Of a stretch of DNA of 64,000 nucleotides, positions 2,464-7,215 are shown piece after piece (position 1 is the first letter of the stretch; the number at the start of each line of letters is the position of its first letter). The DNA comes from Clostridiaceae bacterium (GTDB taxonomy: Bacteria; Bacillota; Clostridia; Saccharofermentanales; DTU023). Made by a program: the position numbers and the translations under genes. The notes beneath the pieces were generated by a model. The model searched no databases and was not told the origin of the DNA. It saw only the letters and a program-made list of their open reading frames with translations. Location: NCBI GenBank assembly GCA_012800435.1, contig JAAZJH010000007.1, forward strand, positions 1 to 64,000, read 5' to 3'.

Positions 2464-3429
2464 ATGACACAAGATCACAAAACACCATGTAAGAAAACCA
2501 CCATTGGCGGACAGGCGCTGATTGAAGGACTCATTATGCTCGGTCCCGAAAAACAGGCGATTGCTGTTCGTGATCAAACCGGTGAGATCAAAGTGACTGT
2601 AAAAGACCGTGACAAGCGTTTCAGTTTTTTTAATGTGCCTTTTCTCCGTGGTGTCGTCAGACTGGTGACACAGCTTAAGACCGGTGTTCAGGCGCTGATG
2701 TATTCTGCAGATGTCGCGATGACGGAAGAGGAAAGGCAGGAAAAATCTGAAAATGATGGCTGGTTCGATCGATTTTCCGGCCGTTATCCTGACCTGATGT
2801 TGACGTTGACATTGATAGTATCGCTTGGATTATCTGTCGCATTTTTTATTTTGCTCCCAAGCGCCGTAACAGACCTGATCAGACGGCTCACCGGTTTCGG
2901 CATCGGTGAGCAACGGGGACTTCGTGTTTTTATACTTTCACTTATTGAAGGTGTCGTTCGCATCGGGATCTTTTTGCTTTATATGTATCTAACGTCTAAG
3001 ACGAACGACATTCGGCGTGTTTGGATGTATCACGGCGCCGAGCACAAAACGATTGCCTGTTACGAGTCAGGATTGCAGCTCAATGTTGAGAACGTCAAAC
3101 AAAATAGCCGTTTTCATCCGAGATGCGGTACTTCTTTCATTTTTATCGTGATGCTAATTTCAATTCTTGTATTCGCTCTAGTAGGTCGTTACACTTTATG
3201 GATCAATGTTTTGCTAAGAGTGGCGCTTCTTCCTGCCGTCGCCGGTATTGCCTATGAAGTACAGCGCATCACGGGGGCACATGACAACGCGCTGACACGT
3301 GTATTAGCAAAACCGGGGCTTGCGCTTCAGCGTCTAACAACCGCCGAACCCGATGATGAGATCATTGAGGTCGCGATTGCTGCGATGAATCCGGTCATTC
3401 CCGAAAATCCACAAGATGATCTTTGGTAA
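2464..3429 (+). CDS. DUF1385 (YqhQ-like) membrane protein
   Basis: GGQALIEGLIMLGPEKQAIAVR start, HGAEHKTIACYE and HPRCGTSF motifs, TM segments; position before prmC. Confidence 0.85.
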   Translation: MTQDHKTPCKKTTIGGQALIEGLIMLGPEKQAIAVRDQTGEIKVTVKDRDKRFSFFNVPFLRGVVRLVTQLKTGVQALMYSADVAMTEEERQEKSENDGWFDRFSGRYPDLMLTLTLIVSLGLSVAFFILLPSAVTDLIRRLTGFGIGEQRGLRVFILSLIEGVVRIGIFLLYMYLTSKTNDIRRVWMYHGAEHKTIACYESGLQLNVENVKQNSRFHPRCGTSFIFIVMLISILVFALVGRYTLWINVLLRVALLPAVAGIAYEVQRITGAHDNALTRVLAKPGLALQRLTTAEPDDEIIEVAIAAMNPVIPENPQDDLW

Positions 3430-4321
3430 TCCGATAAGAATCGATTCTGCCGTCAACCGCATTCGAGAGGCTCTCCGGTTGGCAGGTTTTGATGATCCCG
3501 GGAAAGAGGCGCGGCTGCTTTTTGAGGCGGTAACGGGGATCACGATTGAGCGACAGATCATGCATCCGGATACTGATGTCGACGCTGAAACGACAGCATG
3601 CCTCAATGAAGCGCTCGATATGCGTCTTCGTCGCGTTTCGATACCGCAGATTGTAGGTTATGTCTGGTTTGACGGCCTTCGAATCGACGTCAATATGGAG
3701 ACACTTGTGCCGCGGCCTGAAACCGAATTTCTTGTGAAAGAAGCTTTTCATTACGTAAAAAATAAGCACGTCACTGCTCGACGAATGACGACCGTACTGG
3801 ATGCATTTACCGGTTCGGGAGCCATTGGAATTGCCTTGGGTTTCCGTTGCCAGCAAGAAAATATTCCATTGGATTTGACGTTAGCAGATGTTTCAAAAGA
3901 AGCACTCAAAGTGGCAAAGAAGAACGCTGAACGTTTGTTGCCGAAAATGTGTTGGCGAATTGAGCAGACAGATATCTGGCCTTTGGAAAAGAAAGCATTT
4001 GATGTTATAACGGCTAATCCGCCTTACGTTAAGAGTGACGATGTCGCGCACTTGATGCCGGAAGTTGCATCCTACGAGCCGCGTATTGCGCTTGACGGAG
4101 GAAAAGACGGACTTCATTTTTACAAACGTCTCGCAAAAGAAGGGGCGCTCTATCTGGAATACGACGGTGTTTTGCTCCTGGAGGCCGGTGCAGGACAAGC
4201 TGATGCCATAGTGTCATTTTTTGTGTCGGAAGGCTGGTCTGAAATTGACCGGCTATGTGATGCAGCTGGTTGGGAAAGAATTCTCGTTTTTTCAGAAAAT
4301 AAAAAACAACGCGGCTTTTGA
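3416..4321 (+). CDS. prmC: Peptide chain release factor N5-glutamine methyltransferase
   Basis: VPRPETEFLV, NPPYV motif, directly upstream of prfA. Confidence 0.92.
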   Translation: MIFGNPIRIDSAVNRIREALRLAGFDDPGKEARLLFEAVTGITIERQIMHPDTDVDAETTACLNEALDMRLRRVSIPQIVGYVWFDGLRIDVNMETLVPRPETEFLVKEAFHYVKNKHVTARRMTTVLDAFTGSGAIGIALGFRCQQENIPLDLTLADVSKEALKVAKKNAERLLPKMCWRIEQTDIWPLEKKAFDVITANPPYVKSDDVAHLMPEVASYEPRIALDGGKDGLHFYKRLAKEGALYLEYDGVLLLEAGAGQADAIVSFFVSEGWSEIDRLCDAAGWERILVFSENKKQRGF

Positions 4322-4475: not shown

Positions 4476-5552
4476 ATGATTGACATTGATGACGCTTCAA
4501 AGCTTACGGCAAGTGAAGCGCGCTTTGAAGAGCTGACACGTCAGCTAGCGGATGTCAGCATCATGCAAGATCAGGCGCGTTACATCAAGCTGGCAAAGGA
4601 GCATGCCGCCCTAATGCCGCTAGTCACCGATATTCAAAGTTGGCGGAATGTGATGTCAGAGATCCGCGAAAATGAAGAACTTTTGCGTGAATCAGACGAC
4701 GCAGAACTGTCGGAACTTTTGCGTGAGGAAATCATTCGCCTTGAACAGATGTCGGAAGAGCTTGAACAATCAATTCGAGTGGCGCTAGAACCTAAAGATC
4801 CCAACAATGAACGCAACGTCATCATTGAGATTCGCGCGGGCACGGGCGGTGATGAGGCGGCGCTATTCGCGGCTGACCTTTACCGTATGTACGCGGCCTA
4901 TTCCGAAGCACGCGGATGGCCTGTTGAGATCGTGGATTACAACGAAACAGAGCTCAACGGATATAAAGAAATTGTCTTCAGTGTTGAGGGGAAAGGTGCC
5001 TACAGTCGCTTAAAATACGAAAGCGGCGCGCACCGCGTGCAGCGTGTTCCCGTCACTGAAACGGGCGGACGCATACACACATCTGCTGTCACGGTGGCTG
5101 TACTTCCTGAAGTTGATGAAGTCGATTATGAGATCGATCCGAAAGATCTTCAAATTGACACCTATCGTGCCTCAGGCGCAGGGGGCCAGCACGTCAACAA
5201 GACGAGCTCAGCGATAAGGATTACGCATTTACCGACAGGCATTGTCGTAACGTGTCAGGATCAACGTTCTCAATTCAAGAATAAAGACAAGGCTATGGCG
5301 CATTTACGTTCTAAACTGCAAGCGATGGCGGAACAGGAACAAGCCGATGCCATCGCGAGCGAACGAAAAAGTCAGATTGGCACAGGTGACCGAAGTGAGC
5401 GCATTCGTACGTATAACTTTCCGCAATCGCGCGTAACGGATCATCGGATTGGCCTGACGTTATACAAACTGGAGCGCATTCTTCTGGGAGATATGGATGA
5501 GATCATTGAAGCACTTCAACTGGCAGAACATGAAGCAGCGCTCAAAGAATGA
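4476..5552 (+). CDS. prfA: Peptide chain release factor 1
   Basis: [13 protein letters not shown] (GGQ) and [12 protein letters not shown] (PVT, RF1-type). Confidence 0.95.
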
Positions 5553-5562
5553 GGTTCGATGA

Positions 5563-7215
5563 ATGAAAACGCAAGTGATTCATGTTCGTCATCCGATCGG
5601 ACCTTGCGCATTCAAAGAACCGGGTCGCGCCATCCGTGAAGGAGAAGTTGTGGCGTTTCCGACGGAAACGGTGTATGGACTTGGAGCATCAGCTCTTCTT
5701 CCGGAGGCCGTTCTTTCAATCTTTCGTTTGAAGAGAAGACCTGCCGACAATCCGCTGATCGTTCATCTCGCGTCGAAAGAGGACGCAGCACGGGTCGCTA
5801 TTCAGATTCCGCCTGTTTTTCATGTGTTGTATGAGGCTTTTTCTCCCGGCCCTGTGACGTATGTCATGATGCGCAACAAGGATACGATCCCTGACGAGGT
5901 ATGCCGATTGTCAACGGTAGCCGTCAGATTTCCTTCTCAAGTCGCGGCAAGAGCGCTGATTGAAGCCGCGGGAGTGCCCATTGTAGCTCCGTCGGCTAAT
6001 ATTTCCGGCAAACCGAGTCCGACGCGCGCATCGCATGTGCTACAGGACTTTGACGGTAAGATTCCGTATGTCATTGATGATGGTCCCTGTGAAGTTGGCG
6101 TTGAGTCGACGGTGCTCGATATATTAAGTGATCCCATTAGGATTCTTCGTCCCGGATTTGTAACTGCTGAAATGATCTACAAAAGAACGGGACTTCGCGC
6201 CGTTTCATGGTATGAGCATTCGGAAGACGGTGAGAAGGACTTTCCTCCCGCTCCAGGAATGAAATACAGGCATTATGCACCTTCTGCGCGCGTGTTTATC
6301 GTTATGCCGCGGGAAGGAGAAACGTTGGACAAAACGTTCTCCGATGCTCTTGTAGCGTTCGATTCACCGAAGGCAGCGCTAGAAGATGACAGCGCTGAAT
6401 CTTCGTGTGAGAAGAATGAATATGATATGTCGGTGCTTGCACCAGCGATGGATACGGTAATTCATAACGCTTTTTTGAATGAACATTCATTAGAAAAGCG
6501 GGGCATTTTTACAGGTGATCGCACGTGGCGCGCGCTTATCGCTCGACTCGATGAAGATTTGGCAGGCACGCTATTGCCTTATACTTATGCAGGCGAACAC
6601 GACATTAAAAGTGCGACGCAGAGTCTTTTTGATGCATTACGTACATTTGATGATCAAAAAGTTGATGCGATCTTCGCTGAAGGTTTTTCGGAACCTGATG
6701 CCGCAGGTTATATGGATCGTCTTGAGCGAGCAGCGTCAGGTGAAAAAACTGAAGAAAAATCGATTTTATTACCGCGTCAAATTCTCTTTCTTTGCACAGG
6801 TAATACCTGCAGAAGCCCAATGGCGGAAGCGCTATTCAATGATCGAAGAGTCGACGGATGGATAGCTGTGTCTGCCGGACTGGCAGCCTATCCGGGAATA
6901 CTGATATCGCCCGGATCTTCCGAAGTGTTGCACGAATGGGGTATTGATGCGGATGCACACCGCGCACAGCCTATCGATGATCAATTGATGGAATCAACTG
7001 ATTTGATTGTTACGATGACGGATGCGCACAAAGACATCTTGGTGCGTCTTTATCCTGATCGAGTAGATGACATAGTGTCCTATTCAGCATTTACAGAAAA
7101 TCAAAAAGATATTGATGATCCTTATGGTTTCTCTCTTACATCCTATCGCGCGACACGTGATCGCATTCAAGAGGGGCTAGATCGTCTCTTGGAGGAGCTT
7201 AAAAGACGGTTTTGA
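5563..7215 (+). CDS. Fusion protein: Sua5/TsaC threonylcarbamoyl-AMP synthase + low-MW phosphatase (protein-arginine-phosphatase-like) domain
   Basis: N-terminal GEVVAFPTETVYGLGA, KRRPADNPLIVHL and PGMKYRHYAP (Sua5); C-terminal ILFLCTGNTCRSPMAEALF and DIDDPYG (LMW phosphatase). Confidence 0.9.
   Translation: MKTQVIHVRHPIGPCAFKEPGRAIREGEVVAFPTETVYGLGASALLPEAVLSIFRLKRRPADNPLIVHLASKEDAARVAIQIPPVFHVLYEAFSPGPVTYVMMRNKDTIPDEVCRLSTVAVRFPSQVAARALIEAAGVPIVAPSANISGKPSPTRASHVLQDFDGKIPYVIDDGPCEVGVESTVLDILSDPIRILRPGFVTAEMIYKRTGLRAVSWYEHSEDGEKDFPPAPGMKYRHYAPSARVFIVMPREGETLDKTFSDALVAFDSPKAALEDDSAESSCEKNEYDMSVLAPAMDTVIHNAFLNEHSLEKRGIFTGDRTWRALIARLDEDLAGTLLPYTYAGEHDIKSATQSLFDALRTFDDQKVDAIFAEGFSEPDAAGYMDRLERAASGEKTEEKSILLPRQILFLCTGNTCRSPMAEALFNDRRVDGWIAVSAGLAAYPGILISPGSSEVLHEWGIDADAHRAQPIDDQLMESTDLIVTMTDAHKDILVRLYPDRVDDIVSYSAFTENQKDIDDPYGFSLTSYRATRDRIQEGLDRLLEELKRRF

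Follow-up and report, generated by a model that had tools for sequence, protein, structure and literature searches.

A recurrent clostridial fusion of Sua5 with a probable protein-arginine phosphatase, the likely partner of McsB

Why would a universal enzyme of tRNA modification carry a protein phosphatase at its C-terminus? The question is raised by a gene, sua5::ywlE, at positions 5563..7215 (plus strand, as are all features below unless stated otherwise) of a 64,000-nucleotide stretch of DNA from a Clostridiaceae bacterium, here called the window. Accurate decoding of ANN codons needs t6A, and in many Gram-positive bacteria protein-arginine phosphorylation tags proteins for ClpCP. Both enzyme halves and the pairing of McsB with YwlE are already known; for the Sua5-YwlE fusion, its recurrence and the conserved McsB/YwlE pseudoenzymes reported below we found no description in the full-text literature searched, outside which most subscription journals lie. 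We consider it probable that the product is bifunctional, combining Sua5 with the cell's protein-arginine phosphatase, a putative YwlE orthologue that would oppose McsB.

The open reading frame begins with ATG, contains no internal stop and encodes 550 amino acids. The first-pass annotation, which had described a single uninterrupted frame joining a full Sua5 with a PGMKYRHYAP loop to a low-molecular-weight (LMW) phosphatase domain with CTGNTCRSP, was right on all three points, the loop lying at residues 231-240 (6253..6282) and the phosphatase motif at residues 411-419. Pfam places, in this order and all far above cut-off, Sua5_yciO_yrdC at residues 23-198 (the TsaC/YrdC-like catalytic domain, 5629..6156; PF01300, 180 bits), Sua5_C at residues 200-392 (6160..6738; PF03481, 79 bits) and LMWPc at residues 407-543 (6781..7191; PF01451, 104-108 bits). 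The gene starts 10 bp after the end of prfA (release factor 1, 4476..5552; TIGR00019, 526 bits), its probable operon-mate, upstream of which lie a DUF1385 gene and prmC (release-factor methyltransferase, 3416..4321; TIGR03534, 214 bits, above cut-off), so that prmC, prfA and the fusion gene form a probable translation-termination/t6A operon. The interdomain linker (residues 393-402, 6739..6768) has pLDDT below 50 and is predicted to be disordered. No ATG, GTG or TTG was found in it, or anywhere from residue 385 up to the phosphatase, which rules out an internal start for translating this domain on its own; it would be made only within the fusion.

The N-terminal half contains the TsaC-like domain, the PGM..HY loop and the SUA5 domain of a Sua5 threonylcarbamoyl-AMP synthase, and it passes the TIGR00057 equivalog cut-off (173 bits vs 123). 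In the gating loop, a motif type covered in PMC10321239, P231, G232, K234-Y238 and P240 are invariant across an alignment of 20 fused relatives. AlphaFold2 (AF2) gives one low-confidence stretch within the SUA5 domain, at residues 269-309. Judged from its sequence, this two-domain Sua5 is complete for t6A synthesis.

The C-terminal half combines the LMW-PTP fold, the Cys and Arg of CX5R, the general-acid Asp and the Thr at P-loop position 5 that characterize the YwlE type, and its genome encodes a catalytically intact cognate kinase, McsB. The P-loop CTGNTCRS (6793..6816) holds C411, T415 at the pArg-selecting position and R417; its C, G, N, T, C, R and S are invariant across 22 aligned active YwlE-type domains. 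The general acid, Asp519 of a DPY motif (7117..7119), is invariant in alignments A1 and A3, and C411, T415, R417 and D519 are all invariant among active relatives. In YwlE and PtpB, Thr at position 5 selects pArg over pTyr (PMC8001253). The closest solved sequences to residues 403-550 are 4EGS and then YwlE, and the best LMW-phosphatase fold matches of the AF2 model are again 4EGS and the YwlE arginine phosphatases (TM (target) 0.86-0.91; with Foldseek, 0.86 at about 2 Å for YwlE 4PIC/4KK3). T415 and these nearest structures, by sequence and by fold, bear out the arginine-phosphatase signature read earlier from the DNA. The model has a mean pLDDT of 82 with both domains good; since its pTM is 0.54 and the linker is disordered, we make no claim about domain orientation. 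By profile search, the fused domain is the sole LMW phosphatase found in the window's genome, which is 89% complete. At P-loop position 2, where most YwlE have Thr, almost every member of the window's genus has Glu, His or Gln (L007, L009-L016).

A complete ctsR-mcsA-mcsB-clpC operon lies elsewhere in the same genome (contig C58, L003, 7998 to 3188, minus strand), and its McsB retains all eight catalytic sites checked. The first-pass annotation had tied the fusion to the McsB system, had asked for a check of these four genes and had named the lack of any protein-arginine kinase as an outcome that would speak against it; with the operon present, that outcome is not what we found. The McsA encoded there is short (150 aa), and Pfam detected no UVR motif in it, in contrast to the McsA scanned from family f2.

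The Thr-type P-loop also goes with McsB at the level of the class. Among 245 Clostridia genomes, searched with a degenerate DNA pattern for CxGNTCRS, the Thr-type P-loop occurred in 140 of 168 with McsB and in 6 of 77 without (odds ratio 59, Fisher p 5e-31), counts that are descriptive and not a corrected test, because the genomes are not independent and because chance alone, to judge from reversed-pattern control columns, gives the pattern a background of a few per cent. The Ile version, searched likewise, occurred in 57/168 genomes with McsB and 36/77 without (p 0.07). The Thr-type pattern was found without McsB in G070, G112, G202, G210, G249 and G271; completeness is 61-83% in three of them, 94% in G112 and 100% in G202, and the G249 hit lies away from Sua5 and may be due to chance. 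Pattern hits in G056, G066 and G157 were discounted as chance, the LMW phosphatase domain being absent at those places. McsB was missing from 9 of 59 closer relatives, and with it, in eight of the nine, a Thr-type phosphatase; in the ninth, G029, whose genome is 81% complete, ywlE sits at a contig end. Four McsB-less relatives (G019, G025, G042, G050) retain ctsR. In G010, a member of the window's genus that is 86% complete, McsB, ctsR and any LMW phosphatase are all absent, and its Sua5 is an unfused protein of 376 aa that lacks the third domain. Absences of McsB and CtsR carry some uncertainty, since the B. subtilis control genome gave no match to PF00217 or PF05848, though published work places both genes there; the McsB of families f2, f34 and f12 were matched at 65-118 bits, so the search does reach weak McsB.

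Two further groups of genomes have other P-loops. G149 and G280 (family f41; L164, L171), exceptions to the pairing of Thr type and McsB, join an intact McsB with CTGNICRS, Ile replacing Thr, and offer a natural test of whether pArg specificity needs the Thr. In G072 and G160 (family f18; L143, L151), LMW phosphatases next to sua5 have CTSNTCRS or CTSNICRS P-loops, and McsB was not found.

The kinase and the phosphatase also appear to decay together. We read McsB from genomes that had no Thr-type phosphatase or weak McsB scores and checked eight catalytic residues. Where fewer than six of the eight remained, 21 of 22 McsB came from genomes without a Thr-type phosphatase, and where at least six remained, 21 of 30 genomes had one; because the sample was partly picked for weak McsB or a missing phosphatase, a p-value for this comparison is illustrative only. 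Most of the remaining nine are incomplete genomes (G060, G081, G231, G272, G291) or carry CTGNICRS (G149, G280), and G259 is an exception, with a degenerate McsB yet an intact Thr-type phosphatase.

The clearest case is family f2, all six genomes of which keep both the ctsR-mcsA-mcsB-clpC operon and the Sua5-phosphatase fusion. In all six, McsB retains none of the eight catalytic sites (L035-L040), CPTNTGTG having become DIRYVGTG or NVRLAGTG and NEEDH having become GxxEH. The P-loop of the fused phosphatase is likewise degenerate in 6/6, reading FVCDDNxxxS or FVDDNNxSLS (L026, L029, L055-L058), with the Arg lost in all and the Cys in three; the domain still scores above the Pfam cut-off at 29-49 bits (42-47 in two scanned separately). 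This dead domain evolves at a rate about equal to that of Sua5, in the closest trio dN is about 0.1 and dS exceeds 1.5, values that are rough because dS is near saturation. By the same rough dN/dS, McsB and the fused YwlE domain are both under purifying selection, which may imply a non-catalytic function; they are, as far as sequence can tell, paired pseudoenzymes. In the f2 ClpC N-domain, five of six genomes have another residue in place of the Glu that corresponds to E32, and one of six in place of E106, in a numbering guided by what we take to be the B. subtilis ClpC sequence and meant as a guide only. E32 belongs to a pArg pocket (PMC12583610). An AF2 model of the f2 fusion, built from 6 sequences, had a mean pLDDT of 45.6 and was set aside.

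Co-occurrence, the joint loss in G010 and the paired degeneration in f2 together make a well-supported case that the phosphatase half is McsB's partner, which appears to share the fate of the tag-writing kinase, be it retention, loss or inactivation. Such co-degeneration would identify McsB's own phosphatase throughout Clostridia, and it points to catalysis-free roles for McsB and YwlE. A second co-degenerate pair occurs in another family, in G103 (L118, L156), where McsB has Ser for the Cys and has lost the third Glu, and where the phosphatase next to sua5 has lost its catalytic Cys (P-loop FISNEDTARAP). Degenerate McsB was further seen in f34 (L126, L127, L129, L130), f12 (L123-L125), f67 (L120-L122) and at L162, L163, L165, L167, L169 and L173; outside f2 it spans several families of Clostridia, in most cases in genomes that have no Thr-type phosphatase.

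How widespread the fusion is, and whether it is real, had both been put forward for checking. Of the other genomes of the genus, all 10 that yielded the phosphatase carry the fusion. It also turned up in g3 and g5 of the same family, in g16, g17 and f2 of the same order and, among the 245 genomes across the class, as fused frames without stops in f20 (8 genomes), f30 (2), f73 (1) and f27 (1). Some fused relatives are metagenome-assembled genomes (MAGs) recorded under the name Clostridiaceae or Clostridiales bacterium, whose isolate names suggest anaerobic digesters. The Thr-type phosphatase lies within 1 kb of Sua5, or in frame with it, in 103 of the 109 genomes for which both gene places were listed. 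On a Sua5 tree of 79 rows, which included f20 and f73 of the four class families named above, the fused and unfused states changed at least seven times, one change being the loss within the window's genus (G010), and the fusion has at least 5-6 independent origins. It thus appears to have arisen repeatedly in Clostridia, and is both widespread and recurrent.

Two simpler readings of the gene can be set aside. The window is contig C55 of a fragmented draft (1.62 Mb, 85 contigs), in which an assembly or frameshift error could in principle fuse two separate genes; the same one-frame architecture without stops recurs in ten further members of the genus, in several other families and in named, independently assembled MAG records, so we rejected an artefact as next to impossible, which settles the doubt raised in the first-pass annotation. 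The idea that the C-terminal domain has nothing to do with McsB, and is a protein-tyrosine phosphatase or arsenate reductase of the usual kind, draws on weak NCBIfam matches to Wzb and ArsC families, each falling far short of its cut-off (51-55 bits against 174-215 for thioredoxin-type arsenate reductase). The selecting position, Ile or Leu in classical LMW protein-tyrosine phosphatases, holds Thr415, the closest structures are YwlE, and the Thr type tracks intact McsB while Ile-type phosphatases do not; we regard this identity as very improbable and rejected it on the P-loop and the scores.

What the joining does for the cell is harder to settle. In the bifunctional reading, the two-domain Sua5 would make threonylcarbamoyl-AMP for t6A, and the C-terminal domain would strip McsB-added phosphate from arginines and so rescue proteins from ClpCP. 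Comparison of fused with abutting relatives suggests that the fusion originated when the stop codon separating two genes that had long been neighbours in an operon was lost; it would set the two activities at 1:1 and tie the eraser to the prmC-prfA-sua5 operon. In B. subtilis the next t6A enzyme, TsaD, is degraded by ClpCP under the control of McsB/YwlE, and an Arg-to-Lys variant of TsaD is more stable (PMC7546277); there sua5 and ywlE are separate genes, here they are fused. Tethering may keep Sua5's pathway partners, notably TsaD, dephosphorylated, and the odds that tethering brings a selected benefit are about even. The recurrent natural fusion of an eraser with a t6A enzyme would provide an independent, testable link beside that one B. 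subtilis study.

Nearly as plausible, at a little under even odds, is a fusion of convenience, in which co-directional neighbours lost a stop and the enzymes act independently and globally, with no specific role in t6A. The two genes are neighbours class-wide and often abut in frame with one stop between them (in G018 ywlE begins directly after the sua5 stop, and in G043 the genes overlap by 4 bp), the tree shows several gains of the fusion and at least one loss, and the joining of closely spaced genes in the same direction can recur without selection. Against such neutrality, repeated fixation suggests some value in the attached domain, as does its upkeep in f2 as a dead but conserved module. 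A fuller proposal joins these strands: the fusion would be a dedicated guard, keeping a pArg phosphatase beside the enzyme that makes t6A and thereby sparing TsaD and other translation factors from McsB/ClpCP, and f2 would hold a conserved pseudoenzyme set (McsB, YwlE domain and a ClpC pocket change) with a non-catalytic role; as a whole we think it rather unlikely.

Set beside known systems, the phosphatase half resembles YwlE (B. subtilis/G. stearothermophilus, PDB 4KK3, 4PIC) and S. aureus PtpB in its LMW-PTP fold, CX5R, Thr at position 5, Asp general acid and co-occurrence with McsB, and differs from those stand-alone proteins of about 150 aa in forming the C-terminus of Sua5. The Sua5 half shares its TsaC-like domain, PGM..HYAP loop and SUA5 domain with solved two-domain threonylcarbamoyl-AMP synthases (PDB 6F87, 9D3H), which end after the SUA5 domain at 340-352 aa, whereas here a third, catalytic-type domain follows. 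TsaN (TsaD-TsaC-SUA5-TcdA, PDB 8IDE) is likewise a t6A-related chain in which a Sua5 module is fused to further catalytic modules. Its added modules modify tRNA, whereas here the addition is a protein phosphatase, and Pfam found just Sua5 and LMWPc domains in the chain, with no TsaD or TcdA module. The closest solved phosphatase domain, 4EGS, is a T. tengcongensis LMW phosphatase deposited as RpiB, a name that hints at another ywlE-type domain fused to an operon neighbour, the partner being RpiB rather than Sua5.
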